Shown here one piece after another: positions 1 through 17,287 of a stretch of 64,000 nucleotides of DNA (position 1 is the first letter of the stretch; each line of letters opens with the position of its first letter). A program made the translations under genes and the position numbers. Below the pieces are notes generated by a model. The model was not told the origin of the DNA. It was given only the letters and a program-made list of their open reading frames with translations, and ran no database searches. This stretch comes from Thermococcus sp. (GTDB taxonomy: Archaea; Methanobacteriota_B; Thermococci; Thermococcales; Thermococcaceae): contig NZ_JALUYR010000050.1 of assembly GCF_027012695.1 (NCBI RefSeq), forward strand, positions 1 to 64,000, written 5' to 3'.

Positions 1-181
1 TGCCACCCAACGAGAGAGCTATTCCCGCTGAGATGCCCATCAGAGTCCTTGGAAGTCTGATTTCCTGGATTATCGTTACGGCACCCGGCGTCAGGTTGAA
101 GGGGTTGGTTGGATAACTCCCCACGAAGATTCCGAGGAATACCGCGAGTGATGGCAGGACTATGAGGGCGAGCTTTCTCAT
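1..181 (-). CDS. FecCD/BtuC-type ABC transporter permease (N-terminal part, cut by window edge)
   Basis: About 60 codons are visible, starting at an ATG that overlaps the stop of the upstream binding-protein gene as ATGA. The reading begins MRKLALIVLPSLAVF, one hydrophobic segment, then a short periplasmic stretch and the IRLPRTLMGISAG motif. That motif (RLPR followed by a Gly/Ala-rich helix) is typical of the first part of FecCD permeases for siderophores, haem or cobalamin. It is the last visible gene of a minus-strand operon with two binding proteins and a radical SAM protein. The rest of the permease, and probably the ATPase, should lie to the left of the window. The substrate cannot be read from the sequence. 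Confidence 0.85.
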   Translation of the reverse strand, partial: MRKLALIVLPSLAVFLGIFVGSYPTNPFNLTPGAVTIIQEIRLPRTLMGISAGIALSLGG

Positions 182-1053
182 TCCTCAACACCGCAGAGGC
201 TGTAAAGCTCTTTTGCCGGCTTTCTCCAGTCGGGGAAGAGCTTTTCGTGGACGAACCTTCCAATCTGGTAGATTCCGGGAATTAAACGCGGACTCCACCG
301 CATAAAGCTTTCCCTATCCAATGCCGAGCCAACGATATGGACGTTGCCTTCATCAACGGCTTTAATATTTCTCCATTCCGTCGAGTCAAGCATCTCGTCC
401 CTTATACCTTCGAGCCTCTCCCTGTTTGTCAGAACGCTCGTCAAAAGGAATATATGGTCAGCATCGCTGAAACGCCTGATGAAGTCCTCCTTTTTGAGGG
501 CATAGATCTTCCTTTCCGTTCTCAGTCTCTTCCCGAGGCTTTCTGCACCTGCCTTCTCGACCGCGTCGCTTATTACGTTTGTGCCAGTTACAACGTTTAT
601 CCCGCGGTAGAGCATAACCACCTTCGGCTTTTCTTCAAGCGATTGGGTTATCTCTCCTATCCTTGCGAGGTGCCTTTCGTAGAACTTCTCCAGTTTTGAA
701 AAGTCCCCGCCGGTTTTTTCGGCTATCAGCCTGCTCCCTTCAATGAGGTTTTCGACCGTTAAGAAGTCGAGGAGAAGAACCTCCGCGCCAATCCGTTCGG
801 CAAAGGAATACAGCTCGCCCGAGGAGTGAAGGTTCTCAACCCTGAAGTCGAGGATTAGTTTCGGCCTTATTCCCTCCAGAACGTCCCAGTATGTCTTCTT
901 CGTCCTCTTGAGGTATTTACCAATAACTGGCCTGTCCTTCAGCTCCGGCAGGCAGTAATCGAGTTTGACTTCCTCGTTTATCCCCGCTATTTCGCCCCCT
1001 TTTCCAACCAGCTTGACAATTTCCGCGAGGCTTGCCGGAAAGACCGCTATCAT
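178..1053 (-). CDS. Substrate-binding-protein paralogue without a signal peptide
   Basis: This 291-residue protein aligns along its whole length with the lipoprotein encoded just upstream: its start (IAVFPASLAEIVKLV) matches that protein after its leader (RAVILSTSALEMVQLL). Both end with the same blocks, LLTS, EGNV, RWSPR and a late IG. It therefore has the two-lobe BtuF/FecB fold of class III binding proteins. It begins directly with the mature domain; a GAGGTGG ribosome binding site lies just before the ATG and the upstream gene ends 21 bases away, so no hidden leader fits. It should stay in the cytoplasm unless exported unusually. It overlaps the permease by 4 bases. The role is unknown; an intracellular carrier for the imported ligand is one inference. 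Confidence 0.85.
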   Translation of the reverse strand: MIAVFPASLAEIVKLVGKGGEIAGINEEVKLDYCLPELKDRPVIGKYLKRTKKTYWDVLEGIRPKLILDFRVENLHSSGELYSFAERIGAEVLLLDFLTVENLIEGSRLIAEKTGGDFSKLEKFYERHLARIGEITQSLEEKPKVVMLYRGINVVTGTNVISDAVEKAGAESLGKRLRTERKIYALKKEDFIRRFSDADHIFLLTSVLTNRERLEGIRDEMLDSTEWRNIKAVDEGNVHIVGSALDRESFMRWSPRLIPGIYQIGRFVHEKLFPDWRKPAKELYSLCGVEE

Positions 1054-1074: not shown

Positions 1075-2139
1075 TCAGGAGAGGAAGGGATAGAACGTCT
1101 GGACGAACTCCTTCGCTTTGCCCTCCCAGTTGGGGTAGTAGTTGGGATAGACTGCCTTTCCGATGACCCAGATTCCAACGGCCATCCTCGGGCTCCAGCG
1201 AAGGAAGGAATCCTTCCCCATGTCGGCCCTCAGTATTACGACGTTGCCCTCGCGGACGGCCTTTATCTGTCTCCACGCATCGTCGCTCAGCATTTCCTTT
1301 TTAAGCTCCTCAACCTTCTCGTACGGCGTTACTGAGCTGGTTAGAAGGATTATCACGTCCGCGTTTTTGTAGCTGGCGATTATCTTCTCCCTGTCCATCG
1401 GGACCCTAACCGGTGTGTAGCCGTTGAAAGTTATGTTGACGAGGTAGTCCCCGCCGACAAGCCTTACCGCCTGAGCTAAAACGTCGTTGCCGTTAACTAA
1501 GTAGAGCTTCCCCATTATCGGCTGTATCATGATGACCTTCTTTCTCTTCTCGGCCGGTATCTTCGAGGCCCTCGCCTTAACCTCATTCACCTGCTCGTTG
1601 AAGTAGTCCTCGAAGGCTTTGGCCTCTTTTTCCTTCCCGAAGAGTTTTCCGAGCAGGGAAACGGCCTTCGGAATGTCCTCAAGCTTATCCTCGCGGAGCA
1701 TTATTACGGGAATCCCGTAGCTCGCTGACCTGTTGAGGAACTCGTCAACGTCGTAGAACTTCTTGAGGTAGAGGTTCACGATGAGGTCGGGCTTTAACGC
1801 CAAAACCTTCTCCCAGTCGTCCACTTTGAGCCTCTTGCCGACGACCGTCTTGTTTTTAAGGGCCTGAGTAAGAAAAGCGTCCCCCTTAGCCTCTACCGGA
1901 ATTCCAACTACTTGATTGCTCGCGTTGAGGAGCTGGACCATCTCGAGGGCAGAGGTTGACAGGATTACCGCCCGCTGAACCGGAACCTTCACGGTCACGC
2001 TCCTTCCAGCGAAGTCCTTGACGGTTATCTCCTTTTGGTGGGGTGTTGGGGTCGTGGAGGTCTTCGAGCTTCCGATACAGCCCGCACTAATGACTGAAAG
2101 GAGGAGAATGCCAACGAGTATAAGCGACTTCAATCTCAT
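1075..2139 (-). CDS. ABC transporter substrate-binding lipoprotein (siderophore/haem/cobalamin class)
   Basis: The chosen ATG (MRLKSLILVG) follows a GAGGTGGTGG ribosome binding site; the open frame runs 14 codons further upstream into the neighbouring gene. The protein has about 354 residues. A hydrophobic leader ends in a lipobox, SAGC, followed by a Ser/Thr-rich tether (SSKTSTTPTPH). The binding domain then starts with an AGRSVTVKVPVQRAVILS block, as in FecB/BtuF proteins. The family captures metal chelates or corrinoids outside the cell and delivers them to a FecCD permease, which fits the permease two genes downstream. The radical SAM gene ends 10 bases upstream, so the two are almost certainly co-transcribed. 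Ligand unknown: haem, another tetrapyrrole and Fe-siderophore are all possible. Confidence 0.9.
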   Translation of the reverse strand: MRLKSLILVGILLLSVISAGCIGSSKTSTTPTPHQKEITVKDFAGRSVTVKVPVQRAVILSTSALEMVQLLNASNQVVGIPVEAKGDAFLTQALKNKTVVGKRLKVDDWEKVLALKPDLIVNLYLKKFYDVDEFLNRSASYGIPVIMLREDKLEDIPKAVSLLGKLFGKEKEAKAFEDYFNEQVNEVKARASKIPAEKRKKVIMIQPIMGKLYLVNGNDVLAQAVRLVGGDYLVNITFNGYTPVRVPMDREKIIASYKNADVIILLTSSVTPYEKVEELKKEMLSDDAWRQIKAVREGNVVILRADMGKDSFLRWSPRMAVGIWVIGKAVYPNYYPNWEGKAKEFVQTFYPFLS

Positions 2140-2149
2140 TTCCACCACC

Positions 2150-3352
2150 TCACAAAGGCTTCTGCTCTCCAAAGGTGCCAATCGGGAGGTTCAACCCGAA
2201 TTTCTCAGCGAGACTGAGGTATGAACCCGGCTCGTATGGGCAGGCCGGGTCCTCAGCTAAAGGGTCAAGGTGGTATGAATAAGCCCTCGCCCTGCTCCCA
2301 CCGCAGACTTCCCTGAACTCACAGGCACCACAGCGTCCTTTGAAGTCGGCCGAGCGGAGCTTTCTCATGAGTTCGCTTTCCCTGTAAATCTCGACGAGGC
2401 TTTTCTCCCTCACGTTGCCAACACTGTAGGGTAAGAAACCACTTGGATAGACGTTTCCGTTGTAGGCGATGAATACTATACCCTTCCCGTCGCGGGTTCC
2501 CATCGTCTGTGCTCTTGCCTCTCCCCCCTCGCCGAGGAGCTCAACCAGCCTGCGCTTCAGCCGGAAGTAAAGCTCCCCCGGCTTCAGAACCTCGTCAGGG
2601 TTGAGGCCCTTCTCTTCAAGGGCCTTTCTCACTATGGCAACTCTCCGGAACATCGGTCCCTCTGTTGTTCTAACGAGGAGATGCTTCGATGCCTCGTAGA
2701 GGAAGTGGGTTACATCTTCCCACTCTTCCGGTTTCAAATCGCTCTCGAAGTTGCCCCTGCCGGTCGGAACGAGGTAGAAGACCTCCCAGATTCCAACGCC
2801 CAAATCATTCAATAGCTTGACCATCTCAGGTAGGCCTTCAAGGGTCTCGCGCATGACGACGGTGTTAACCTGAACTGCAACGTCTCGCTTGAGAAACTCC
2901 CTTATCGCCCAGACGGTTCTTTTCCACGTCCCCTCGATGCCCCTTATGGAGTCGTGAACCTCCGGGAAGGGACTGTCGAGGCTTATGCTCACAGCCCTAA
3001 CGCCGTGCTCGACTATTTTATCAATAGTTTCCTCCGTGAGGAGGGGTGTTACAGCCGGAGCTAAACCAATGCGGATGCCCTTTTCGGTTGCGTATTTTAT
3101 GAGGTCGAAGATGTCCTTCCTCATGAGGGGGTCTCCACCGGTTAGAATTAGAATCGGATAGGGCCTTCCGAATTCGGTTAGTGAATCGATGAGCCTTTTT
3201 CCTTCCTCCGTCGTCAGCTCGCCGGGGAGGGCCTGGAGAATCGCCTCGGCTCTGCAGTGCCTGCACTTGAGCTGGCAGGCTTTGGTGGTTTCCCAGAACA
3301 CCAAAACTGGCTTTTTATAGTAGGGCCAGTGGCCAGATTTGCCTCGATGCAT
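2150..3352 (-). CDS. Radical SAM/SPASM protein, AhbC/AhbD-like
   Basis: This protein of about 400 residues has a radical SAM core with C26, C30 and C33 in the CxxxCxxC motif (KACQLKCRHC), then LTGGDPL, typical of the SAM-binding strand. Near its C-terminus lies a SPASM-type auxiliary Fe-S region, CGACEFREVCGG, with a later CPYEP. The CGGSRARAY block resembles the haem-synthesis enzymes AhbC and AhbD (PqqE-like group), which decarboxylate Fe-coproporphyrin side chains, but this function is inferred from resemblance and context. The ATG at 3352 sits after a GGTGG; a GTG three codons upstream is less likely. It heads the importer operon and is just downstream of cydB, so action on an imported tetrapyrrole is plausible. 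Confidence 0.85.
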   Translation of the reverse strand: MHRGKSGHWPYYKKPVLVFWETTKACQLKCRHCRAEAILQALPGELTTEEGKRLIDSLTEFGRPYPILILTGGDPLMRKDIFDLIKYATEKGIRIGLAPAVTPLLTEETIDKIVEHGVRAVSISLDSPFPEVHDSIRGIEGTWKRTVWAIREFLKRDVAVQVNTVVMRETLEGLPEMVKLLNDLGVGIWEVFYLVPTGRGNFESDLKPEEWEDVTHFLYEASKHLLVRTTEGPMFRRVAIVRKALEEKGLNPDEVLKPGELYFRLKRRLVELLGEGGEARAQTMGTRDGKGIVFIAYNGNVYPSGFLPYSVGNVREKSLVEIYRESELMRKLRSADFKGRCGACEFREVCGGSRARAYSYHLDPLAEDPACPYEPGSYLSLAEKFGLNLPIGTFGEQKPL

Positions 3353-3394
3353 TTCGACCACCGTCTTTTAGGTTACCGGAATGAACTTAGGGTA

Positions 3395-3410
3395 ATCGAA
3401 TTAAAAACCT
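3395..3410 (-). promoter_or_regulatory. Probable TATA promoter of the radical SAM-importer operon
   Basis: Read on the minus strand, the gap after cydB contains AAAGGTTTTTAATTC, an A/T-rich TATA-like element about 45 to 55 bases before the radical SAM start. The T-tracts just before it (GTTTTTTGG) could also help stop cydAB transcription. Weak evidence, from composition and position only. Confidence 0.4.
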
Positions 3411-3451
3411 TTCCCCAAAAAACAGTGTTTGGAGGATAAAAGAAGAGGGGG

Positions 3452-4450
3452 TTAGTAGTAGCCTGTGGCCTCTTCGACCTTGCCGCCGAACATCCTGTAG
3501 ACGTATAGTGTGTAGGCCATGATGATTATCGCTAGCACCACTGACACTCCAAGGACTGCCTGGAGGGTTAGGGGTGACGCTGCCAGGTCGTGGATATCAA
3601 GCTTGAAGTCCGAGATCGTGGAGATTATCCAGTAGGGGTACATGCTGTAGTAGATCAGGAAGGTAACGAGGGGGAATGCCAGCCAGCTGATGTAGAAGGT
3701 CAGCTTCTCCTCGCCCTTCTTGATGAGGTAGCCGTCGAGCAGTCCTGCAACGAGGATTACCAGCGTGAGCCCAAGGCCGAGTGGCGTCATTAGCCTCTCG
3801 AACCTGAGCGGTGCCCAGATTTTCATGCCTATCACTGTGAGCAGGAGGAAGACCACCGTCAGGAGCCAGAACTTGAAGGCGTAGCCCCTCATGGTTTCCT
3901 GGAGCTTACCTGTCGTCTTGTAGACGGCCCAGTTGGCCCCGTGCCACATTACCGCGAAGAGCACGAATAGGCCGACTATTAGCGGGTAGGGTCTGAAGAG
4001 CGTCAGCAGTGACCCCTTGAAGGCACCGCTGGCGTCCAATGGGAGTCCCTGGATGAGGTTGCCGACTATGACGCCAAGGATCAGCGCTATGAGCGCGCTG
4101 ACTACTGCAAAGAGCTTGTCCCAGAGGGCCTTGTTCCTGTTCCTGAACTCGAAGCTGACCGCCCTGAAGATGAACAGGAACGCTAAAAGCCACACCGCGA
4201 GGTAGAAGGTGCTGAAGAGCGTCGCGTAGAGGGCCGGCCACATCGCGAAGAGTCCCGCTCCCCAGGTGATGAACCAGACCTCGTTGCCGTCCCAGACGGG
4301 GGCTATTGTGTTTATGAGGACGTCTCTGTCCCTCTGGTCCTTAACGAAGAATAACAGCGTGCCTATTCCAAGGTCGAAGCCGTCAAAGGCAAGGTACATT
4401 CCGAGGAGGAAGGCTGAAAAGTAAAACCATGCAGTCGCGTAGTCCATCAC
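3452..4450 (-). CDS. cydB: Cytochrome bd ubiquinol oxidase subunit II
   Basis: This 332-residue membrane protein begins MMDYATAWFYFSAFLLG and has eight or nine hydrophobic segments. Early motifs GFDLGIG and WDGNEVW are CydB hallmarks. It is the second subunit of the bd quinol oxidase, which passes electrons from quinol to oxygen without pumping protons. The start overlaps the cydA stop as ATGA, so the two subunits are translationally coupled. No cydX-like frame follows directly: the next gene is the radical SAM protein after about 100 bases. The family assignment is firm. Whether the enzyme serves respiration or oxygen detoxification is inference. Confidence 0.95.
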   Translation of the reverse strand: MMDYATAWFYFSAFLLGMYLAFDGFDLGIGTLLFFVKDQRDRDVLINTIAPVWDGNEVWFITWGAGLFAMWPALYATLFSTFYLAVWLLAFLFIFRAVSFEFRNRNKALWDKLFAVVSALIALILGVIVGNLIQGLPLDASGAFKGSLLTLFRPYPLIVGLFVLFAVMWHGANWAVYKTTGKLQETMRGYAFKFWLLTVVFLLLTVIGMKIWAPLRFERLMTPLGLGLTLVILVAGLLDGYLIKKGEEKLTFYISWLAFPLVTFLIYYSMYPYWIISTISDFKLDIHDLAASPLTLQAVLGVSVVLAIIIMAYTLYVYRMFGGKVEEATGYY

Positions 4451-5970
4451 TGACCACCTCCCGCGGTGCTGATTGAGGGAACGGGGTTGGAGGTGACATC
4501 ACCCTGAACGGGCTCGGGCCCCTCCCTGACGAGCTTCCTGACGAAGTGGAGCCAGATGTAGAACAGCACCGTGTAGACCACTGCGAATGCTATCAGGGTT
4601 ATCAGCACGCTGGTTGCTGAAACGTTCGGTGAAACGCCCGTGTTAACCGTCACCATTCCCCAGACCATCCAGGGCATTCTTCCAACCTCGTGGGTGAACC
4701 AGCCGGCCATACCGGCGAGCCAGGGCAGGGGCAGTGTAACGACAAGCATCTTGAGGAACCAGCGAGCGTCGTAGAGCTTGCCGAGGAGGAGCAGGAGCAC
4801 TCCAAGGCCGCCGATGGCTATGAAGAGCGTCCCTAGGCCGACCATGACGCGGTAGGCGTAGAACATGAAGGCTACCGGGACTGCCTTCTCGAGGACCTTC
4901 ACCATCTTCTCGTTCGCCTGCGGGTCGTTCGGGTCGACGCCATGAGCCCTCATTATCTGCTCGATGAACTCCTTTTTGACCTTCTCGTTCTCGAAGTTCG
5001 GGTTGTTGAGGACCTGCTCGTACCAGACGTACTTCGCTGCATCGTGGAGGCCCATAACCTCGGCGTTCCAGTCTCCGAAGGACAGCCAGCTTAACAGCTT
5101 TGGAATCTCTATGGCGTACTTGATTTCCTGATTCTTCTCGTCAACTATGCCGAAGATGACCATGGGCGCTCCCCTCGTCGTTTCGAAGAGTCCCTCGTCG
5201 GCCGCCAGCTTGGTCGGCTGGTACTTGGCTATAACCCTGCCCTCCTCGTGTCCAGTTGGATAGAGCTGGATTATCGAGCTTATCGCGAGGACGACTATGC
5301 CTATTGCAACAGCCGAGCGCGCCACCTGGACGTGCCTCTTTTTGAGGAGGTAGTAAGCTCCAACGGCCGCAACTATGTAGGCGCCGGTTATTATCGCGGA
5401 GTTGATGGTGTGGGTGTACTGGGAAACCAGGAGCGGGTTGAAAACTGCCTTCATGAAGTCGGTCAGCTCGGCTCTTATGCCGAGGGACGTCTCCCTGATG
5501 ACGTAGGCCGTTGGAACCTGCTGCCAGCTGTTGGCTATGAGAATCCAGAGTCCGGAGAGGCTCGAACCGATGAAGACGAAGAAGGCTGAAATCCAGCTTA
5601 TTACCCTCGGGAGTCTGTCCATGCCGAAGAGGAGCACTCCAATGAAGGTCGACTCAAGGGCGAAGGCAAAGAGTCCCTCGAGCATCAGCGGCGGCCCGAA
5701 GATCGAGCCAACAAAGACCGAGTAGTTTGCCCAGTTCGCTCCAAACTCGAACTCCATGACTATTCCGGTTGGGACGCCGAGAACGAAGAATACACCGAGC
5801 CACTTGCTGAAGAACTTTGCAGCCTTATGCCACTGCTCCTCGCCTGTTATCGCCGCCATGGTCCATAGCAGGAATACCATAAAGGCCATACCTATACTCG
5901 CGGGCACGAAAATCCAGTGGTACGCCACGGTGAAGGCGAACTGGATTCTCGAGAGCAGCACCGGGTCCAT
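4447..5970 (-). CDS. cydA: Cytochrome bd ubiquinol oxidase subunit I
   Basis: This is a 507-residue, nine-helix protein. H18 (AYHWIF) and E98/E106 (MLEGLFAFALE) match the high-spin haem ligands, and H187 (QYTHTI) with M376 (RVMVGLG) match the haem b558 ligands. The quinol loop between residues about 235 and 365 is of the short type. The late motif is GRMPW rather than the common GRQPW, and the Glu that follows it in E. coli-type enzymes is replaced, as in other short-loop oxidases. The ATG is preceded by GGAGGTGA. A TATA box lies at 6021-6030. In a Thermococcales background this gene demands haem, which connects it to the ferrochelatase and radical SAM genes nearby. Confidence 0.96.
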   Translation of the reverse strand: MDPVLLSRIQFAFTVAYHWIFVPASIGMAFMVFLLWTMAAITGEEQWHKAAKFFSKWLGVFFVLGVPTGIVMEFEFGANWANYSVFVGSIFGPPLMLEGLFAFALESTFIGVLLFGMDRLPRVISWISAFFVFIGSSLSGLWILIANSWQQVPTAYVIRETSLGIRAELTDFMKAVFNPLLVSQYTHTINSAIITGAYIVAAVGAYYLLKKRHVQVARSAVAIGIVVLAISSIIQLYPTGHEEGRVIAKYQPTKLAADEGLFETTRGAPMVIFGIVDEKNQEIKYAIEIPKLLSWLSFGDWNAEVMGLHDAAKYVWYEQVLNNPNFENEKVKKEFIEQIMRAHGVDPNDPQANEKMVKVLEKAVPVAFMFYAYRVMVGLGTLFIAIGGLGVLLLLLGKLYDARWFLKMLVVTLPLPWLAGMAGWFTHEVGRMPWMVWGMVTVNTGVSPNVSATSVLITLIAFAVVYTVLFYIWLHFVRKLVREGPEPVQGDVTSNPVPSISTAGGGQ

Positions 5971-6020
5971 TCCACGTCACCTCCAGGTTTGTCCTTCAAA
6001 CTACCAATACTGCAATCCAA

Positions 6021-6030
6021 ACTTATAACG
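6021..6030 (-). promoter_or_regulatory. TATA box of cydAB
   Basis: The minus strand reads CGTTATAAGT about 55 bases before the cydA start codon. A start of transcription some 25 bases downstream would leave a leader of about 30 bases containing the GGAGGTGA site. It lies in the 112-base gap between the small membrane protein gene and cydA, so cydAB can be expressed apart from that gene. Confidence 0.6.
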
Positions 6031-6082
6031 TTTTCGGGAGTCCTAACGCGGTTTTTTCGACAGAAAACGAAAATTTGAAGGC

Positions 6083-6286
6083 CTAACTCCTGGCCTTTGG
6101 CCTGACGAAGAATCCCTGGCCGTGGACCTCTGCCTCGTACAGCAGGAAGCCCACGCTGAACAGCATTCCAACAACAATCCACACAACGTTGTGTAACAGA
6201 AATGCCAGTATAACGAACAGCAGTGTTAAGGTTATGGCCACGAGTCCGCAGACCACTTCCTTCCCGGTTTCAGCCTTCACAGCCAT
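6083..6286 (-). CDS. Small membrane protein upstream of cydAB
   Basis: This 67-residue protein has two hydrophobic segments (residues about 11-31 and 33-50) and a basic C-terminus (RPKARS). The ATG follows a GGTGATG ribosome binding site and a TATA element (AGGGATATAA) at 6321-6330, so it is probably a real gene. It is on the same strand as cydA, 112 bases upstream. I do not recognise a family. By position it could be a small accessory subunit or assembly factor for the oxidase, but known bd small subunits (CydX, CydS) are shorter and have a single helix, so this is speculation. Confidence 0.65.
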   Translation of the reverse strand: MAVKAETGKEVVCGLVAITLTLLFVILAFLLHNVVWIVVGMLFSVGFLLYEAEVHGQGFFVRPKARS

Positions 6287-6320
6287 GGCGCATCACCGGA
6301 ACCCCTTTCGTTGATCGTTC

Positions 6321-6330
6321 TTATATCCCT
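6321..6330 (-). promoter_or_regulatory. TATA box of the small membrane protein gene
   Basis: AGGGATATAA on the minus strand, about 35 bases before the start codon. It lies in a 148-base gap shared with the oppositely directed flavoprotein operon. Confidence 0.55.
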
Positions 6331-6376
6331 TTCGCTCCGGGAGTTTTCCGAACGAAGTGGGTGCGATAATCAAAAG

Positions 6377-6387
6377 GGTTAAATACC
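6377..6387 (+). promoter_or_regulatory. TATA box of the SQR-ferrochelatase operon
   Basis: GGTTAAATACC lies about 48 bases ahead of the flavoprotein start, leaving room for a short leader with a GAGGAGGTG ribosome binding site. The two promoters in this gap point away from each other, so the oxidase side and the flavoprotein side could share a regulator. Confidence 0.6.
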
Positions 6388-6434
6388 CCAACATCCCAAT
6401 TTTTTTAGACCAACCTAACTGAGGAGGTGTGCCC

Positions 6435-7583
6435 ATGGCAAGGGTTCTTGTGCTCGGCGGTGGAACCGCCGGACTGGTGGCAGGGAGGTACATAACTTCC
6501 GAGGCGAAGAGACTTGGCATCGATGTGGACGTCACGATGGTGACCGCGAGCGAGAGGCACTACATGCCCCCGCTCTTCATGGAGGTGGCTTTGGGTTCGG
6601 CCTCACCTGAGGAGACCTGGGCCCCGATAAAGAACGCGGAAAGGGTATACGGCTTCAATGTTGACATCGACAGGGTCACCGAGATCGACCTCGCCAACAG
6701 GCAGGTGAAGACCGAGGGAGGAAAGACCTACGACTACGACTACCTGTTCCTTGGGCTGGGCGTCAAGTACGTCTGGGACAAGTACAGGGGCTTCGCCGAG
6801 TACGGTTACCACAACTACACCCTCGAAGGGGCTCTCGAGCTTCACAAAGCCCTTTCGGAGTTCAAGGCCGGAAAGATAGTCATCTACGCTCCAGAAGGAC
6901 CGCACCGCTGTGGAATATACCCCTACGAGATGAGCCTCAACCTCAGGATGTACTTCGAGCACCGCGGAATAGAGGACGTTGAGATTACCGTCGTCCACCC
7001 CGACAAGAGGCCGGCCATAGGTCTCGGTCCCGATCTGGTCAGGTTCTTCGAGAGGGAGATGGAGAAGGCCAACGTTAACTTCATCCACAACGAGGGCCAC
7101 GTCGAGATAACGCCGAACAAGGTGGTAACCAAGAACGCGGAAGTTGACTACGACCTCCTCATCAAGATACCACCCATAGCTATTCCCGACGTCATGGCGT
7201 TCATGGCCGATGAAAAGGATCCGCGCTGGGCGAAAGTAATCGGCCCTGACTTCCGCTATCCAGACTACGACGAGGTCTACATCGTTAGTGAAGCGAGCAT
7301 GCCGCCGCTCGGACTCCTAACAGCGGGAGTTCCGCTCCATAATGCATCAATCGTTGCGGCAACCAGCATACTCCACAGGATACACGGAGGCTATCCGGTG
7401 GCTGAATACGCCCCAACGCTTTGTGTCGGCCACGGCTACAACACGGGCTTCTCAGGAAACTGCGAGTACGAGTGGGCCGGAAACAAGTACAAGCGCGAGT
7501 GCTATCTTCTGATAAAGAGTCCGCTCGTGAGGCTGATGAAGGATTCCTTCTACAGGGGCTGGCTGGACAGTTTGAGGCTGTGA
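6435..7583 (+). CDS. Sulfide:quinone oxidoreductase-like FAD flavoprotein
   Basis: This 382-residue protein opens with an FAD-binding Rossmann motif (VLVLGGGTAGLVAG) and contains YDYLFLGLGVKY, the second dinucleotide-binding signature of the SQR/NDH-2 family. Cysteines C159 (HRCGIYP) and C330 (LCVGHG) sit roughly where SQR keeps its redox pair; C343 and C356 are additional. SQR oxidises sulfide at the membrane surface and passes electrons to quinone. The C-terminus (LVRLMKDSFYRGWLDSL) could form an amphipathic membrane anchor. The ATG is preceded by GAGGAGGTG; a GTG two codons upstream overlaps that site. It is followed by DUF1641, a known partner of this family. FCSD-like or other quinone reductases remain possible. 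Confidence 0.85.
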   Translation: MARVLVLGGGTAGLVAGRYITSEAKRLGIDVDVTMVTASERHYMPPLFMEVALGSASPEETWAPIKNAERVYGFNVDIDRVTEIDLANRQVKTEGGKTYDYDYLFLGLGVKYVWDKYRGFAEYGYHNYTLEGALELHKALSEFKAGKIVIYAPEGPHRCGIYPYEMSLNLRMYFEHRGIEDVEITVVHPDKRPAIGLGPDLVRFFEREMEKANVNFIHNEGHVEITPNKVVTKNAEVDYDLLIKIPPIAIPDVMAFMADEKDPRWAKVIGPDFRYPDYDEVYIVSEASMPPLGLLTAGVPLHNASIVAATSILHRIHGGYPVAEYAPTLCVGHGYNTGFSGNCEYEWAGNKYKRECYLLIKSPLVRLMKDSFYRGWLDSLRL

Positions 7584-7593
7584 GGTGGTGAAG

Positions 7594-8016
7594 ATGAGCG
7601 AACTCAAGCTTACCCCGGAGGAAGTTGCGGCCGTTAAGGAGTTAGCGGAGGTTGCCCTCGCCCTCAAGAAGGGCGGAACGCTGGGCATACTAAAGGCCAT
7701 GACCGAGAACGGCGACAAGCTCCTCGAGACGGTGGCAGAAGAAAAAGCCCTCCTCAGGCTGATGGGAGTTGGAAACGCCGCCCTCGAACCCGTTAGGGAG
7801 CTTGAAACGGCAGAGGTCAGGGAGATAAGCTGGAACACTGAGGAGCTCGTAAGGGCTTTGCTCAAGGCACTGGCAAAGACCGACCCGAAGGAAGTTCCGA
7901 AGGTCGGCATGACCGCTGCATTAGGATATCTCCGCGATGAGGATGTGCAGAAGGGACTCGGCTTCCTCCTAACCCTCGCGAAGAACTTAGGAGCGGCTCT
8001 GAACGGCAAGCTCTGA
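7594..8016 (+). CDS. DUF1641 family protein
   Basis: This soluble protein of 140 residues is mostly helical and ends in the DUF1641 signature, KGLGFLLTLAKNLGAAL. Proteins of this family are usually encoded next to SQR-like flavoproteins or formate dehydrogenase-type genes, as here; their biochemical role is unknown. The ATG at 7594 is chosen because GAGGTGGTG precedes it; the GTG at 7585 lies inside that site. It starts 10 bases after the flavoprotein stop, so it is co-transcribed. Confidence 0.85.
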   Translation: MSELKLTPEEVAAVKELAEVALALKKGGTLGILKAMTENGDKLLETVAEEKALLRLMGVGNAALEPVRELETAEVREISWNTEELVRALLKALAKTDPKEVPKVGMTAALGYLRDEDVQKGLGFLLTLAKNLGAALNGKL

Positions 8017-8044
8017 CCCTTTCCTTCTTTTCGGGGGTGGAACC

Positions 8045-8938
8045 TTGAGGGTTCTCTTCACCTACATGGGCGCTCCCACCGAGCCGGATGAAATCGAGGA
8101 CTTTATCTTCAGGTTTCTCTATGATGTGAGGCACCACATAGGCCTCGACGTTCCCGGAGCGAAGGCCATAATCAGGGGCATAGCCAAAGTTCGCGCGAGG
8201 CAGGTGAGGGAGCACTACGCGGCCATAGGAGGCAGAAGTCCGTTGGTTGATTACATGATGGAGATAGCAAACGCGGTAAGCGAGAAGACGGGCCACGAGA
8301 TAAGGCTCGGCATGTGCTACTCGAAACCGCTTTTGGAGGAGTTGAACTGGGACTTCGATTTGGTCTTTCCGCTCTACCACGTCTACTCGAGCTCTACCAC
8401 CGAGCGCTGCCTCGTCAAAATAAGGCAACTCTTCGGCGAGAAGCCTTACATAAAGGAGTGGTGGGGCAACGAGAAGTTCATCCAGTGGGTTCAGAGGAAC
8501 ATCGAGAACGGTTTGAAAGAGAGTGGCTTTGAAGAGCCCTACATCATCCTCAGCGTCCACAGTCTACCCAGGAAGGTCATAGACGGGGGCGACCCCTACG
8601 AGAGGAGCCACAGAGAGCTGGCGGAGAGGGTGATGAAGGCCTTCGACCTGCCCTGGGAGATGGCCTTCCAGAGCAGGTTTGGAAGGGGCGAGTGGCTCGG
8701 GCCAGCTGTTCCCGAGGTTCTGGAGAGGCTGGAATCGGAAGGGATTAACGAGGTTCTCGTTTACCCGCTGAGTTTTCTTGTTGAGAACGTTGAGACCCTC
8801 TACGAGCTGGACGTTGAATACAGGGAGGTCGCTGAGGGACTCGGCCTGAAATATTACCGGGCCAAACTGAACCACCGCGACCCTCTCCTTAGCGAGGCCA
8901 TAGCGGAGGTGATCCTGAATGCCGGTAACGAAAACTGA
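8045..8938 (+). CDS. hemH: Ferrochelatase homologue (TTG start)
   Basis: This 297-residue protein shows the ferrochelatase series in order: YMGAPTEPDEIEDF at the start, IGGRSPL (residues 61-67), GMCYSKP (89-95), FPLYHVYSSST, ILSVHSLPRK with the metal-site H172, and PLSFLVENVETLYELD with catalytic E250. The family inserts Fe2+ into protoporphyrin IX or, in the coproporphyrin route, coproporphyrin III. The usual SDH before IETLYELD is VEN here, so metal or porphyrin preference may differ. The TTG start follows GGGGGTGG; no better start is seen. It is co-directional with SQR and DUF1641 and overlaps the next gene. Archaea with haem normally use the sirohaem route, which has no step at protoporphyrin, so the role here is open. 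Confidence 0.9.
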   Translation: MRVLFTYMGAPTEPDEIEDFIFRFLYDVRHHIGLDVPGAKAIIRGIAKVRARQVREHYAAIGGRSPLVDYMMEIANAVSEKTGHEIRLGMCYSKPLLEELNWDFDLVFPLYHVYSSSTTERCLVKIRQLFGEKPYIKEWWGNEKFIQWVQRNIENGLKESGFEEPYIILSVHSLPRKVIDGGDPYERSHRELAERVMKAFDLPWEMAFQSRFGRGEWLGPAVPEVLERLESEGINEVLVYPLSFLVENVETLYELDVEYREVAEGLGLKYYRAKLNHRDPLLSEAIAEVILNAGNEN

Positions 8939-9293
8939 AAGGGCCAAGATAAACGAAGCGGAGAGGTTTACCAACGCCTTCATAGCGTACATCATGGGTT
9001 TCGTCGGGGGAATACCCCTCCTTCTGATGAAGGACACCGATGAGTTTACCAGGATTCACGCGGCCTACTCGAGCGTAATGGGCTTCTTCGCCTGGCTGAC
9101 CTTCATGGCGGTCTGGCACATGCCGGTCAACAGGGTTTATCCCCACTTCGGGCCGGCCATGTACGTGGTCTACGCCTGGCTGCTCTACGCGGCCTTTGGA
9201 ATGTACTCCTACATGCGGGGCCGGACCTACAGGATACCCTTTGTTGACAGGCTGGCGAAAGGTCTAATAAGGGCCCTTTCCCACGCGGTGTGA
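8919..9293 (+). CDS. Small integral membrane protein
   Basis: This 124-residue protein has a charged N-terminal 18 residues and three predicted membrane segments (about 20-38, 53-72 and 80-97). The start overlaps the end of the ferrochelatase gene by 20 bases, and the ribosome binding site (GGAGGTGATCC) lies inside that gene. The segment pattern resembles DUF4870/Tic20-like small membrane proteins, but I cannot assign it with confidence. Function unknown; by operon position it might help membrane delivery of the ferrochelatase product, an inference only. Confidence 0.75.
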   Translation: MPVTKTERAKINEAERFTNAFIAYIMGFVGGIPLLLMKDTDEFTRIHAAYSSVMGFFAWLTFMAVWHMPVNRVYPHFGPAMYVVYAWLLYAAFGMYSYMRGRTYRIPFVDRLAKGLIRALSHAV

Positions 9294-9302
9294 GGGAGAC
9301 CA

Positions 9303-10268
9303 ATGAGAAAGGCCATCGTTTCCGCGCTCCTGTTACTGTTACTTTTCCCCATTTCCACCCGGGCCTCTCCGCTGGGACCGGATGATTTCATGAACAGGTT
9401 TGTTGAGGCAGTTGACACCGGAAACTACTCGCTGATAGAACCCTACCTGGGCGAAGAGCTCAGGGATCAGTTCACAGAGGACTACTTCAACCAGGTGAGG
9501 GCCTTTATCCTCGAAAACTACGGGAAGCCCCTTGCCTTTGAGCCCGTCTCCAACTCCACCTCGGGGGACCTCGTCAGGTACGAGTACACGGTTCGCTGTG
9601 AGAGGGGTTCCTTCCCCGTTCTCCTGGCTTACAAAAACGGTCAGTTGGTTGGCATTGCCCTCGGCGTCAAAGCGAGACTCAATCCAGCGGGGATGCTCCT
9701 AACCATGCTCGGCTCCCTCCTCTCCCTGGGGGTGCTCTACCTCTGGAGGCGGAAGCTTGAGGTGGCGGATTTCATCCTGGGCGCTGGAATAGCGCTCGGT
9801 CTCGGGATAATCCTGCCCTTCTACTCCCTGATAACCGTGGGGCTCAGCAGGATCACGGGCGTCCTCCTCTCATCCCTCCTGATCGCCCTTACCGTGGAGG
9901 GCTCAAAGTACTACTTCTCCCGTAAAAGGGACGGCTTCTCCCTCGGTCTCGGCTTCGGCGTCGGCAAGTACGTTTTTCTGGCAATAGGAACCTTCGTTGC
10001 CACCAACTTCATCCTCAAGCTCCCCGTTTCCTTTTCCGGGGGATTGGCCTATGCCTTCCTCAGTGCCCTGATCTTCACGGCATTCCACGGCTTAACGGCA
10101 ATGCTCTACTCCGCGGGGAGAGTTGAGTACCTTCCCATCTTCACGATCTTCCAGTTTATCTCGCTCTCCCTGATGGCCCTGGGAAGGCCAGGGGTGGCAA
10201 TGCTCACGGCCGGCGCAGGTCTGGTCCTTGCGGCTTACCTGGGGGTGAGGCGGAATGGAATCCCTTGA
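9303..10268 (+). CDS. Secreted DUF3887-like domain fused to a YhfC/CPBP-like membrane domain
   Basis: This 321-residue protein has a signal peptide (residues 1-22, ending TRASP), an exterior domain of about 100 residues resembling DUF3887 (DDFMNRFVEAVDTG through YKNGQLVGI), then seven or eight membrane segments. In the membrane part, E199-G-S-K202 and a later FTAFH262GL recall the Glu and His motifs of YhfC/PrsW/CPBP-type putative intramembrane proteases, though I see only single motifs. It starts 10 bases after the previous gene (GAGGGAGACC site) and overlaps the prenyl synthase start by 14 bases. Protease activity is not shown. The fold assignment is moderate; the membrane topology is clear. 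Confidence 0.7.
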   Translation: MRKAIVSALLLLLLFPISTRASPLGPDDFMNRFVEAVDTGNYSLIEPYLGEELRDQFTEDYFNQVRAFILENYGKPLAFEPVSNSTSGDLVRYEYTVRCERGSFPVLLAYKNGQLVGIALGVKARLNPAGMLLTMLGSLLSLGVLYLWRRKLEVADFILGAGIALGLGIILPFYSLITVGLSRITGVLLSSLLIALTVEGSKYYFSRKRDGFSLGLGFGVGKYVFLAIGTFVATNFILKLPVSFSGGLAYAFLSALIFTAFHGLTAMLYSAGRVEYLPIFTIFQFISLSLMALGRPGVAMLTAGAGLVLAAYLGVRRNGIP

Positions 10269-11175
10269 CGAAAAGCTCATAGAAACGCTTGAGGGAAGCG
10301 TCGAACTCGCGAAGAAGATAGGAGAGTACGTAATAAGAAGCGGGGGAAAGAGGATAAGGCCGAGGATAATCCTGGCGGTTTCAAATGGACTGGGCCTCGA
10401 TGAAAGCGATGCCCTCGACCTTGCTTCAGCCGTTGAACTCATCCACACCGCCAGCCTGGTCCACGACGACGTGATAGACCTCGCGGAAAAGAGGAGGAAC
10501 AGTCCCACCGTGCCAATGCAGTGGGGGCCGGAACTTGCTGTTTTGAGCGGGGATTTTCTCTTCGTCAGGGCCCTGAGGATAATAGCATCCAAGCGGGTTG
10601 GGATGGTTGACTACGTTGCAGGAGTTGTGGAGGAGATGGTGAAGGCCGAGATCCTTCAGGAGGCCGTTCGGGGGAGCGTACACCTCGACGTTGATACATA
10701 TTACAGGATAATAGACGGAAAGACCGGAGGGCTCTTCGGGGCCTCCTTTGCCCTGCCGGCCTACTACATCGGGAAACCTTTCTGGAGGGAGCTTGATAAG
10801 GCAGGAATCCTCGTCGGCAGGGCCTTTCAGATAGTTGATGATGTCCTGGACTACTTCCCGGGGACCGGAAAGGACCGCTTCAAGGACCTGCTGAACGGGA
10901 AAACGACGCTCCCGCTCATACTCTACTCGGAACGCTACGGCTCGGCACTCGTTGAGAAAACCCTGCTCCAGCCCACGGAGGAAAACCTCCTGGAACTCTT
11001 TGAGCGGATGAATAGCGCGGGTGTCTTCAGGGAGGCCATGGACACGGCGAAGGACTTTTTGAAGGAGGCGTACGAATCCATCAGCTCCCTCCCCTTTGAC
11101 TCCTCCGGCGTTATCTCGCTGGTCAACGAGTACTTCGAGGGGGTCTTCGCGAAGTTCAAAAAAGTCGGTGGTTAG
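10255..11175 (+). CDS. Polyprenyl diphosphate synthase (E-type isoprenoid synthase)
   Basis: This 306-residue protein has both Asp-rich motifs: DDVID in LVHDDVIDLAEKRRN and DDVLD in IVDDVLDYFPGTGKD, with GGKRIRP near residue 30 and the conserved KTGGLF and GKTTLP blocks. It condenses isopentenyl diphosphate with allylic diphosphates. Residues 4 and 5 before the first motif are small (A-S), which in this family tends to give longer chains (C20 or more), so it could make geranylgeranyl diphosphate for lipids or a quinone tail. Its place at the end of an SQR operon, overlapping the upstream gene, favours a quinone-related role, but that is inference. Confidence 0.9.
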   Translation: MESLDEKLIETLEGSVELAKKIGEYVIRSGGKRIRPRIILAVSNGLGLDESDALDLASAVELIHTASLVHDDVIDLAEKRRNSPTVPMQWGPELAVLSGDFLFVRALRIIASKRVGMVDYVAGVVEEMVKAEILQEAVRGSVHLDVDTYYRIIDGKTGGLFGASFALPAYYIGKPFWRELDKAGILVGRAFQIVDDVLDYFPGTGKDRFKDLLNGKTTLPLILYSERYGSALVEKTLLQPTEENLLELFERMNSAGVFREAMDTAKDFLKEAYESISSLPFDSSGVISLVNEYFEGVFAKFKKVGG

Positions 11176-11244: not shown

Positions 11245-11289
11245 GGGGATTAGCCCAACCTAATGGGTTTAGGTTCAGGAGGGCGGGGG

Positions 11290-12759
11290 ATGATAGGGCT
11301 TCTCGCTACGCTCACCTTCATCGTTCCTCTACTCGGAGGGCTGGTGCTCTTCAAACTGGACGGGAAGAGAGCGGACGCTGTTATGCTGGGCTCCTTCTTT
11401 ACGGCGATGCTTCTCCAGTTCGGCGTTTTGATCGAATACCTGCTTCATCACCATCACGGGACAGTTCACGTCGCCTACATGATCACGGAACGCCTGGGGG
11501 AGGTTTACGGTATTATAATCGATCCTATGAGCGTTCTAATTGGCACGGTCGTCGCTTTAGCCGGCTTCATCTTCATGTTCTACGGAATGGAGTACATGAG
11601 CGAGAGGAACGCTGGACATCCCGTCAGAAAGGGAAAGGGTCTCTTCTACGCCTGGATGACCCTCTTTGAAGGCGCTACTCTCGGCTTCATATACTCCTCC
11701 ACTTTCCTTGGCCTGCTCATCTTCTTCGAGCTCATGGGTCTTGCCTGCTGGGGTGTGGTTAGCTACTACGGAACGAAAGCAGGCGTCAGGGCCGGGTTCA
11801 AGGCCTTTATAATCCCCAACATCGGGGCGATGATAGGATTCTACACCGCCATCGGAGTGGGAATAACCCAGCTTCACGACCTGAGCCTCTTCTCGCTCTC
11901 CCACGTTTCGGAGTCACTGAAGCCATGGGTCTTCATAGCGCTCCTCATCGCGGGCTACACGAAGAGCGCCCAGTTCCCGACCTATTCCTGGATTCCCGAT
12001 GCCATGGAGGCCCCGACTCCAGCCAGTGCCTTCCTTCACGGCGCGGCGATGGTCGAGATGGGCGTTTATCTCGTTGCGAGGGTTCTCCAGTTCATCGGGC
12101 CCTTACCGGTTTGGATCTTCTACTTCATGGCGGTGATGGTTTCCCTGACACTTCTCATCCCGATACTGAATTACCCCGTTCAGAACGACGCCAAGAGGCT
12201 TCTGGCCTTTTCAACGGTGGCTGAAGCTGGAATAATGTTCGTCGGCCTGACCTTCGCAGCTCTTGGTCTTGAAGTGGGCCTCAAGGCTGCCATGTTCCAG
12301 CTCACCACCCACGCCTTCGTCAAGGGACTGGCTTTCCTCACAGCAGGAACCTTCACATACTCCCTTGGAACCCTCGACATGAGACGGATAAGCGGCCTCA
12401 AGGACCTCCTTCCGGTCAACGCATTAGCTTGGAGCGTTGCACTCCTTGGGTTGGCGGGCCTCCCGCCGATGGCGATAGCCTTCAGCAAGGCCGAGCTCCT
12501 CACCACCCTCAGCGCGATCAGGATAACGCCCCTGGCCTGGCTTCCGATACTGATGCTACTCGTTGATTCAGCAGTGTTCCTCTGGGTTGGCGTTAAGTGG
12601 ATAACCAGGAACGTCTTTGGAAAGAGGAGCGTGGCGAAGGCTCACACCCACCCGATAATAACGGCATCCCTGATAATGCTCCTGATCCTCGTCTTCATCG
12701 TTCCTTATCTCGCCTATCCCCTCGTCCATGGGATCGGCTTCTTCGGAGGTGGCCATTGA
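11290..12759 (+). CDS. NuoL/MrpA-type antiporter subunit
   Basis: This 489-residue polytopic protein (about 14 segments) belongs to the proton_antipo_M family. Key residues are E147 in FFELMG (helix 5) and K225 in TKSAQFP, followed by WIPDAMEAPTPASAFLHG, the most conserved block of NuoL/M/N and MrpA/D subunits. It is the first gene of a nine-gene operon; its TGA shares a base with the next ATG (TGATG). In bacterial MrpA this domain is fused to MbhD- and MbhE-like tails; here those parts are separate genes (15378 and 15632). It should form one of the ion channels of the complex. Confidence 0.9.
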   Translation: MIGLLATLTFIVPLLGGLVLFKLDGKRADAVMLGSFFTAMLLQFGVLIEYLLHHHHGTVHVAYMITERLGEVYGIIIDPMSVLIGTVVALAGFIFMFYGMEYMSERNAGHPVRKGKGLFYAWMTLFEGATLGFIYSSTFLGLLIFFELMGLACWGVVSYYGTKAGVRAGFKAFIIPNIGAMIGFYTAIGVGITQLHDLSLFSLSHVSESLKPWVFIALLIAGYTKSAQFPTYSWIPDAMEAPTPASAFLHGAAMVEMGVYLVARVLQFIGPLPVWIFYFMAVMVSLTLLIPILNYPVQNDAKRLLAFSTVAEAGIMFVGLTFAALGLEVGLKAAMFQLTTHAFVKGLAFLTAGTFTYSLGTLDMRRISGLKDLLPVNALAWSVALLGLAGLPPMAIAFSKAELLTTLSAIRITPLAWLPILMLLVDSAVFLWVGVKWITRNVFGKRSVAKAHTHPIITASLIMLLILVFIVPYLAYPLVHGIGFFGGGH

Positions 12760-14648
12760 TGGAGCCCGTGGCGGTTCTGGAGATAGCCCTCACCCTCCTG
12801 TTCCTGGGTGCGCTGGTTTCCCTGCTCCGGGGTGGCAGGCTGGCCTACTCCTTTACGCTCGCCTCGTCCCTGCCGATCTTCGTTGTCTCGGTGAAGGGCA
12901 TAGGGGGATTCCGCGGTGAGGTGATCCCATTTCTACCGACGGAGGTTGAAGTCGATCCGCTCTCGGCCCTCTTCCTGATGATCCTGGCTTTCATCACATT
13001 CTCCCTCTCGCTTTACCTCCTCGACTACAGGACGAGGGGAAGTGGAAGGTACCTCGGCCTCTCCGTCAACATGGCCCTGCTCTCGGCCCTTCTCTTTCTG
13101 GTCACGAATAACCTTGAGCGGTTCACCCTGGCTTATGAGCTCTTCGCGGTGTTCACCTTCGTTATTATCCTTACCTCCGAGACAAAGGGTTCGCGGAAGG
13201 CGGCGTGGAGGTACATCGTTATAACACAGCTCTTCGGCATAATCCCCCTCCTCCTCGCGACATCCCTCGCCTATTCCGCCGTGGGGGATCTGCACGGGCT
13301 GACCTTCGAAGGTCTTAGAGAGAACCTCGCCAACCTCCCGGTCGGCCTCTGGCTCATGTACGCCCTCTATCTCTCGGCTTTCCTGGTAAGGGCTGGTGTC
13401 TTTCCCTTCCACACCTGGGTGGCCCGCGCTTACCGTTCGGTTCCAAGTCCCTTCATTCCAGTATTCATAATCGGTGAGGGGCTGGGTTTCTACGGCCTTC
13501 TCAGGACGGTTGAGTTCGCTCTCCCCACCTCGCGGGCAGTTGGCTACACAGTGGCAGCTCTGGGCACCGTTTCGGCATTCGCGACGCTCTACTCCTTCCG
13601 CGAGATAAGGCTCAAGCGCAAGTTTGCCCACCACAGCATAATGGACGTTGGAATAGCCTTCTTCGCCCTCGGCGCTTCGATGGTCCTGGGGGGAACCGCG
13701 GGAACGATAGTCCTCATAGGAGCGCTCCTCCACATCCTGTACCAGGCGCTCTACAAGGGCACCGTCTTCTTCGGACTGGGGGCGATAGAGCACTACGGCG
13801 AGGATCCGACGGTGTGCTCAATACGGAAGCTCCTCAGGGGGCATGTCATCTCGCTCCTCATATCACTCTCGGTCTTCTCGATGGCGGGTGTTCCCCCTCT
13901 GGCTGCCTTCGTTTCCAAGTGGCCGATATACGAGGGCATAGCCATGTCGAGGGACGTTCTCCTCTGGATAATGATGCTGACGATAGCATTCCTCAGCCTC
14001 TTCCCGATGGCCTCGATCCTCCAGATAAGGCGCCTCAACAGGGAGCTCTGCGAGAGGGAAGTCGAGAGAGAAGAGATACCGCTCATGATAAGAGCCGTCA
14101 CGGGAATGATGGCGGTGGCCGGCTTCACAGTCGCAATCTTCCCGCTAATCCTCCACCCCTGGCTGATCTCCGCGATAGAGGAGATACGCGGTTCGATTCC
14201 GGGAAGTCCTGTGGAGGTTTTCTTCGCGTCGCCCTCTTTCCTGCTTGCGGTGGTCCTTCTAATTGCCGCCCCGCTGGCGGGCTGGAAGATCGGGAAGATG
14301 CCAACAGACAGGATCAGCGAGTTGCTCCTCATATTCTACAACGCTGGCGACATACTGAAGGAGGCCTTTGAATTCTTCCTCGGGAAGTTCAAAAGGGCCT
14401 ACATCACCTACGTCCTCCCGGTGATAAAGGTCGTTCCCCGGTACGAACTTCCGGACATAGAGGACGTGGACGATGCCTTTGACTACCCCATAAGGCACCT
14501 CGATGAGGCGATGTTCATGCCCCTGATAAGGGCCGTTGAAAGGCTCGCGCACTGGGGTAAAAGCAGGAACCTTGATATGAACGCGCTCATAGGCGGCTTT
14601 GCCATAGCGATGGCAGTCCTTATAGTTCTCCTGGGGGTGTTTGCATGA
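12759..14648 (+). CDS. Second NuoL/NuoM-type antiporter subunit, extended
   Basis: This 629-residue polytopic protein starts at the ATG sharing a base with the previous stop; the open frame upstream is out-of-frame reading of that gene. The antiporter core has a helix-5 glutamate (LAYELFAVFTF) and a VRAGVFPFHTWVARAY block in place of the usual KSAQFP-type lysine motif, so its key residue is shifted (R instead of K). The C-terminal 200 residues hold a hydrophilic stretch and a final helix, as in MbhH'/MrpA-like long forms. Two large antiporter proteins in tandem before MrpF suggest a complex with three channel subunits, counting MrpD at 17288. Confidence 0.88.
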   Translation: MEPVAVLEIALTLLFLGALVSLLRGGRLAYSFTLASSLPIFVVSVKGIGGFRGEVIPFLPTEVEVDPLSALFLMILAFITFSLSLYLLDYRTRGSGRYLGLSVNMALLSALLFLVTNNLERFTLAYELFAVFTFVIILTSETKGSRKAAWRYIVITQLFGIIPLLLATSLAYSAVGDLHGLTFEGLRENLANLPVGLWLMYALYLSAFLVRAGVFPFHTWVARAYRSVPSPFIPVFIIGEGLGFYGLLRTVEFALPTSRAVGYTVAALGTVSAFATLYSFREIRLKRKFAHHSIMDVGIAFFALGASMVLGGTAGTIVLIGALLHILYQALYKGTVFFGLGAIEHYGEDPTVCSIRKLLRGHVISLLISLSVFSMAGVPPLAAFVSKWPIYEGIAMSRDVLLWIMMLTIAFLSLFPMASILQIRRLNRELCEREVEREEIPLMIRAVTGMMAVAGFTVAIFPLILHPWLISAIEEIRGSIPGSPVEVFFASPSFLLAVVLLIAAPLAGWKIGKMPTDRISELLLIFYNAGDILKEAFEFFLGKFKRAYITYVLPVIKVVPRYELPDIEDVDDAFDYPIRHLDEAMFMPLIRAVERLAHWGKSRNLDMNALIGGFAIAMAVLIVLLGVFA

Positions 14649-14929
14649 ACTTTGAGAGTGCCTTCCTCAACGTGCTGTACTTCTCGGCCGTCATCTACGC
14701 CTTGGCCTTTATCCTGTACGGAATAAGGGCGATTAAGGGACCTACAACCGCGGACATTATCCTAGCCGTGGACTGCCTCTCCTTCGACATGGCGGCATTC
14801 ATGGTCGTCCTTGGCATCTATTTCAAGTCAATAATGCTCGCCAGCGGCGCCATAATCCTCGCCCTCTGGGCCTTCATGCTCGACGTCTACTACACCAAGT
14901 ACGTCCTCTATGGGGAGGTGGAGGTATGA
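14645..14929 (+). CDS. mrpF: Mrp antiporter subunit F
   Basis: This 94-residue protein has three hydrophobic segments and the conserved GIRAIKGPTTADIILAVD block of MrpF/PhaF/MbhB. It overlaps the previous gene by 4 bases and the next by 4. Small helper subunits F and G flank the channel subunits in the assembled antiporter. Confidence 0.9.
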   Translation: MNFESAFLNVLYFSAVIYALAFILYGIRAIKGPTTADIILAVDCLSFDMAAFMVVLGIYFKSIMLASGAIILALWAFMLDVYYTKYVLYGEVEV

Positions 14930-17278: not shown

Positions 17279-17287
17279 GGTGAGAGC

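Follow-up and report, generated by a model that had tools for sequence, protein, structure and literature searches.

Textbooks describe the Thermococcales as strict anaerobes that have no cytochromes. For Thermococcus gammatolerans, a 2009 account reports cydAB (tg1232-1233) with neighbouring ubiD, ubiA and ubiE homologues (PMC2718504), and a study that also covers strain AM4 discusses the cydAB/ubi neighbourhood as lateral transfer (PMC3512248). In Streptococcus agalactiae, the operon cydAB-ndh-menA is functional only when haem and either a quinone or 1,4-dihydroxy-2-naphthoate are supplied from outside (PMC6030563). The late futalosine-pathway genes mqnP, mqnL and mqnM have been presented together with a hypothesis of precursor exchange (PMC4746308), and quinones have been treated as growth factors (PMC5738691). 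Here we analyse a cytochrome bd gene island that begins a contig of a Thermococcus sp. genome (1.75 Mb, 146 contigs, ~91% complete); the window is the 64,000-nucleotide stretch C50:1-64000 (NZ_JALUYR010000050.1).

The core of the island is not new, as cydAB beside "ubiquinone" genes has been known since 2009 (PMC2718504). The oxidase, the quinone genes and the gene order agree with T. gammatolerans, and one complete genome in our set, G019, matches that order. Unlike what we find here, the passages of that account consulted do not describe HemH, the SQR (sulfide:quinone oxidoreductase) family protein, DUF1641, the polyprenyl synthase, the haem/B12-type importer or the radical SAM protein, nor the missing early pathway and the loss scar reported below, and they call the quinone ubiquinone. 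In function, S. agalactiae comes closest, and the island is best read as an archaeal counterpart of its respiration. In both, the cytochrome bd cluster includes a flavoprotein for electron input and, for quinone synthesis, late gene(s) only, de novo haem synthesis is missing, and respiration would be an option for a fermenter. In contrast to S. agalactiae, the host is an archaeal hyperthermophile, an SQR-family protein replaces NDH-2, futalosine-type late steps (MqnP, MqnL, MenG) replace MenA, a ferrochelatase is kept, and ABC importers lie within the cluster. Compared with the proposed futalosine consumers (PMC4746308), the late enzymes are homologous and the early steps are likewise missing; both PMC4746308 and PMC5738691 state that no transporters for quinone precursors were known, and the island supplies a specific ABC candidate. 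In the reading we favour, and consider reasonably probable, the island is the genetic basis of an optional quinol-oxidase chain, built on late-step haem and menaquinone synthesis from imported precursors.

Results

A conserved block of about 20 genes in one genus

Among 94 Thermococcaceae genomes, 19 carry the island: 18 with CydA, all from one genus, and G066, whose contig ends inside it. HemH is present in the same 18 genomes and in G066. An MqnL-type UbiD homologue occurs in 17 of the 19 island genomes and in none of the other 75, and the binding protein of the second of two ABC importers (importer 2) occurs in the same 17 and in none of 98 other genomes of the phylum. Radical SAM orthologues scoring above the TIGR04053 cut-off were found in 15 genomes, every one with the island; G065 and G067 have partial copies at contig ends, G066 is unassembled there, and only the complete G019 truly lacks the gene.

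We compared gene order in stretches of up to 20 kb around CydA from the 18 genomes. One arm runs in a single direction through MenG/UbiE, the importer 2 (ABC-2) ATPase, permease and binding protein, UbiA/MqnP, UbiD/MqnL, the importer 1 (ABC-1) ATPase, a HemG-like flavodoxin, a FecCD permease, the substrate-binding proteins SBP1 and SBP2, the radical SAM protein, CydB, CydA and a 67-aa protein; the divergent arm comprises the SQR-family protein, DUF1641, HemH, two membrane proteins and a polyprenyl synthase. This order is identical throughout, the single variant being G019, which lacks an internal block. Given an order common to 18 genomes, the arrangement is far beyond chance. An earlier sequence-only reading of the window had proposed a haem, quinone and oxygen-reduction island for an order that is normally anaerobic and poor in cytochromes, and had named separate occurrence of the genes in relatives as the outcome that would speak against it; strict co-occurrence and conserved order bear the proposal out, and the genes are not scattered.

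The island reaches further than that reading had it, because the contig starts within it, inside the FecCD permease. On a second contig of the same genome (C41, 3337 bp), the end of the ABC-1 ATPase is followed by UbiD, UbiA and the ABC-2 binding protein, in the order seen in relatives. The quinone-ring genes are therefore next door rather than absent: the window indeed lacks them, as had been noted, but the island has them just past the contig end.

Late steps of cofactor synthesis without the early ones

Searches for HemB, with 11 of 14 controls positive, gave no hit in any of the 94 genomes, complete ones included; to our knowledge, every known tetrapyrrole route requires this enzyme. UroD was absent from all 19 island genomes, and in these no MenD scored above cut-off. 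As MqnA/MqnD (PF02621) was likewise found in none of the 94 genomes, island hosts would be at most consumers of a menaquinone precursor. De novo genes for haem and for the quinone nucleus (HemB, MqnA/D, MenD) thus went undetected, and the suggestion that the island brings its own haem and quinone support held up only in part. With nothing but the final steps encoded, and no HemB, UroD, MqnA/D or MenD, the haem and quinone precursors are probably imported. The presence of late steps without early ones, in a block that also holds two importers, leads us to a salvage reading, with precursors probably taken from neighbours; import itself is what the gene content suggests. UbiD needs UbiX, which was found in 19 of 19 island genomes.

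Selection, gain and loss

All island genes are under purifying selection, with a median ratio of nonsynonymous to synonymous substitution rates (dN/dS) of 0.06-0.26 for each gene tested. The island-less genome G020 (L065:13006-14634) carries a 542-aa open reading frame (ORF) that fuses the left-flank NAD-epimerase in frame to a polyprenyl synthase 85% identical to that of the window, beside the antiporter genes, with all genes between gone. At the empty site of G025, the left-flank ferritin gene directly adjoins the antiporter, and in the antiporter-gene tree island-less genomes fall among island genomes, some nodes being weakly supported. The island looks to have been lost at least once, seemingly by a single deletion, and the scar, the empty site and the tree together indicate that the block behaves as one unit. 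A scan of genome contigs with CydA returned three Thermococcus metagenome-assembled genomes only and thus gave no lead to a donor lineage.

Cytochrome bd and the divergent promoter gap

The coordinates of all features are collected in Table 1; family calls were judged against Pfam and curated NCBIfam/TIGR cut-offs. The cydAB, SQR-like flavoprotein, DUF1641, ferrochelatase, radical SAM/SPASM and polyprenyl synthase genes of the sequence-only reading were recovered at or near the positions it gave, most of them above curated cut-offs. It had missed the 67-aa ORF, the two binding-protein genes (178-2145) and the contig start within the FecCD permease.

Table 1 Features of the island and its flank in the window
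Feature	Coordinates	Strand	Evidence or remark
FecCD-type permease, 3' end, importer 1, cut by contig start	1..181	-	clusters with L042:13972-14907 (PF01032)
SBP1, Peripla_BP_2-like	178..1053	-	PF01497 26.6 bits, just under cut-off
SBP2, lipoprotein binding protein of importer 1 (haem/corrinoid/siderophore family)	1075..2145	-	PF01497 87.9 bits
Radical SAM/SPASM protein TIGR04053, related to AhbD and NirJ	2150..3361	-	520.8 bits over 395
CydB	3452..4450	-	PF02322 260.8 bits; TIGR00203 168.9 over 117.3
CydA, long Q-loop, all tested haem/quinol residues	4447..5970	-	PF01654 487.8 bits
67-aa protein, two predicted transmembrane helices	6083..6286	-	first gene of cyd side, directly upstream of cydA
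Divergent promoter gap, 142 bp	6287..6428	.	alignment of 15 gaps
SQR-family flavoprotein (Pyr_redox_2)	6429..7583	+	PF07992; start probably ATG at 6435
DUF1641 protein	7585..8016	+	PF07849 46.2 bits
HemH ferrochelatase	8045..8938	+	PF00762 213.9 bits; TIGR00109 185.6 over 124.6
Membrane protein, 124 aa	8919..9293	+	weak DUF4870
NTF2-like domain with ~7 transmembrane helices, 321 aa	9303..10268	+	fastest-evolving island gene, dN/dS 0.26
Long-chain polyprenyl diphosphate synthase (quinone tail)	10255..11175	+	PF00348
NuoL/MrpA-like and Mrp-type antiporter genes, flank not island	11263..18868	+	PF00361

CydA aligns with the E. coli protein (6rko) over its full length, long Q-loop included. Every haem ligand and quinol or proton residue tested is kept (E. 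coli to Thermococcus: H19 to H18, E99 to E98, E107 to E106, H186 to H187, K252 to K254, E257 to E259, R391 to R374, M393 to M376 and E445 to E428), and CydA and CydB are encoded together; judged by these residues, the cytochrome bd is intact. The 67-aa protein gave no Pfam match, is present in every relative with the region assembled and has a dN/dS of 0.18. It is a possible accessory small subunit of cytochrome bd, like CydX/CydS but with two helices.

The two arms diverge from a single promoter gap, as the sequence-only reading had described, and promoter elements lie on both strands. On the minus strand, a TATA-like GATATAAG (6320-6327) is accompanied by the B recognition element (BRE) CGAAA (6330-6334); on the plus strand, the BRE AAAAGGG (6372-6378) precedes TTAAATAC (6379-6386). 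Between the two promoters lies an imperfect dyad, CGAAC/GGTGCG (6349-6366). In the gap alignment, in which one of the sequences is clipped by an overcalled start, the BRE/TATA-like elements of both strands are kept in 13 relatives. A SurR-type GTTnnnAAC operator was rejected, being absent from the aligned gaps bar one position in one locus.

Haem side

HemH resembles the human protoporphyrin-type ferrochelatase (108 bits) more than the coproporphyrin-type enzymes of Bacillus (75 bits); its catalytic His and Glu align with those of the human enzyme, and H172 is invariant among orthologues. In the radical SAM protein, seven Cys are invariant in 14 orthologues. Curated cut-offs do not support assignment of this protein as the haem b synthase AhbD (TIGR04545, 298 versus a cut-off of 500), the protein belonging to TIGR04053 instead, or of the flavodoxin as a HemG menaquinone-dependent protoporphyrinogen oxidase (NCBIfam, 32 bits versus a cut-off of 142), with which it shares the flavodoxin fold only. 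The best NCBIfam model for SBP2 is IsdE (59.7 bits, under the cut-off of 298.65), and the best full-length NCBIfam matches of the permease in the relative (L042:13972-14907) are BtuC-type. SBP1 adjoins its lipoprotein paralogue SBP2 and is conserved in 14 loci, with no signal peptide and no membrane helix or hydrophobic segment; it is perhaps cytosolic and may be a carrier of a tetrapyrrole or metal. In G019, importer 1, the HemG-like flavodoxin and the radical SAM gene are missing together as one block, which suggests that they form a functional sub-module.

Quinone side

For the UbiD homologue, TIGR03701 (MqnL) is the best model at 411 bits, ahead of the UbiD-proper model at 299, and the UbiA homologue matches MqnP (203) better than proteobacterial UbiA (121). 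The polyprenyl synthase has a ELIHTASLVHDDVID motif resembling that of octaprenyl diphosphate synthases and small residues ahead of the first DDxxD, as in long-chain synthases. The binding protein of importer 2 is NMT1/SsuA-like and adjoins UbiA within the island.

A path from sulfide through quinone to oxygen had also been suggested; a sulfide donor is only inferred from a distant SQR match. The protein is a PF07992 family member, but reaches 112 bits versus a curated cut-off of 525 (for a type III selenoprotein, the sole SQR model to give a match). Its best match in the PDB is SQOR (8dhk, 64.8 bits), with which the FAD fold agrees and Cys161 is aligned; Cys332 in the C-terminal part, outside the alignment, is a likely further active-site cysteine. 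The C-terminal half gave no match against the PDB, and Cys161, 332, 345 and 358 are invariant in 17 sequences. A literature search for SQR together with DUF1641 gave no result. For the 321-aa protein, AlphaFold is confident for the NTF2-like domain only (mean predicted local distance difference test score 63).

Flanking genes

The flanks carry genes usual for the Thermococcus group (TFE-alpha, branched-chain polyamine synthase, FtsZ and inositol-phosphate synthase) and, with the genus-wide searches, support the assignment to Thermococcus. The Mrp/NuoL-type antiporter block was rejected as part of the island and is counted as flank, because its first gene occurs without the island in four relatives (G018, G020, G021 and G025; 79-89% identity). 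In two of these, G021 and G018 (L066, L067), the antiporter genes adjoin a further, longer cluster that holds additional NuoL/NuoM-like genes. In the window, the start of the ORF at 12597-14648 (+) is overcalled, orthologues of ~628 aa suggesting a start near 12762, just past the preceding gene. Downstream of the antiporter genes lies a YeeE/YedE-type sulfur transporter (PF04143; 19178-20803, +), a possible link to sulfur oxidation. The left flank in relatives (L042:387-6711, L069) is an oxygen-defence neighbourhood with a flavodiiron protein, FMN reductase and ferritin.

Discussion

The sequences themselves establish the gene content and order, the intactness of the parts, their inheritance and loss as a unit, and the lack of the early pathways, with genes for the final three menaquinone-type steps (MqnP/UbiA, MqnL/UbiD and MenG/UbiE) in the block. 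From these genes we infer the importer substrates, the identity of the quinone, the sulfide donor and the energy gain of the following chain. Importer 1 would bring a tetrapyrrole (protoporphyrin, protoporphyrinogen or haem) into the cell, where the HemG-like protein, HemH and perhaps the radical SAM protein would convert it to haem. Importer 2 would take up a soluble precursor of the quinone ring (1,4-dihydroxy-6-naphthoate is the likeliest), to be prenylated with a long-chain tail (MqnP), decarboxylated by MqnL with its UbiX-made cofactor and methylated (MenG) to menaquinone. The SQR-family flavoprotein and DUF1641 would pass electrons, perhaps from sulfide or polysulfide, to the quinone pool, and cytochrome bd would reduce O2 to water. 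At vent mixing zones this would remove O2 and yield a modest proton-motive force; the chain would serve oxygen defence, and perhaps energy as well.

Several observations weigh against this proposal. The models for importer 1 do not clearly favour any one of haem, B12 and siderophores, and the closest solved relative of importer 2 binds taurine, so that both ligands are guesses. The UbiD homologue falls short of the MqnL cut-off of 495.9, and G058 and G066 show neither MqnL nor importer 2, that side being cut off by contig ends. The missing block of G019 means that importer 1, the HemG-like flavodoxin and the radical SAM protein are not essential to the oxidase, and in the literature searched neither haem nor a quinone nor O2 uptake was backed by biochemical data. 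The pathway absences, finally, are calls on known families, which leaves room for de novo cofactor synthesis by unrecognised enzymes, with importer 1 moving iron/siderophores or B12, importer 2 a sulfonate or taurine, and both sharing the operon by chance. The breadth of the importer families favours this view, as siderophore binders rank among the best matches of SBP2 and the importer 2 binding protein resembles TauA/SsuA. We nevertheless hold it unlikely, since HemB is missing in 94 of 94 genomes and the importer 2 binding protein, a neighbour of UbiA within the island, is absent from all other genomes of the phylum.

A mainly detoxifying role against oxygen or reactive oxygen species, with no respiratory energy gain, is compatible with salvage and differs in purpose. 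It was first proposed for T. gammatolerans (PMC2718504) and agrees with the flavodiiron protein and ferritin genes of the left flank; cytochrome bd is, however, inherently electrogenic (PMC6030563), and a whole quinone chain is costly where soluble enzymes exist. We regard this purpose as a serious possibility, falling a little short of likely. That the quinone is instead a ubiquinone-like benzoquinone from 4-hydroxybenzoate is suggested by the UbiA/UbiD/UbiE names and the KEGG assignment in PMC2718504, but the profile scores favour MqnP/MqnL, and this route needs hydroxylases, of which the island has none, whereas the naphthoate route needs just the three steps; we consider it quite improbable. 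Decaying transferred genes or metagenome contamination might be suspected from the 146 contigs of the window genome. The island nonetheless stands in the single-contig genomes G019, G022 and G033 and in the near-complete G030, all its genes are under purifying selection, and PMC2718504 reports it in an isolate; we take this explanation as refuted, leaving it almost no credence.

Returning to salvage-based respiration, importer 2 is a concrete candidate for a quinone-precursor transporter. More tentatively, in a proposal we hold possible but on balance doubtful, this NMT1/SsuA-like system would be the first dedicated transporter of a menaquinone ring precursor and, with the tetrapyrrole importer and the terminal haem enzymes, would form a deletable, unit-like salvage-respiration module that makes a fermenting archaeon O2-respiring. 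If the island is indeed a complete, selectively maintained oxygen-reduction kit reliant on the cofactors of neighbours, vent communities would share haem and quinone precursors, and the gain or loss of oxygen respiration as a single block would be explained.

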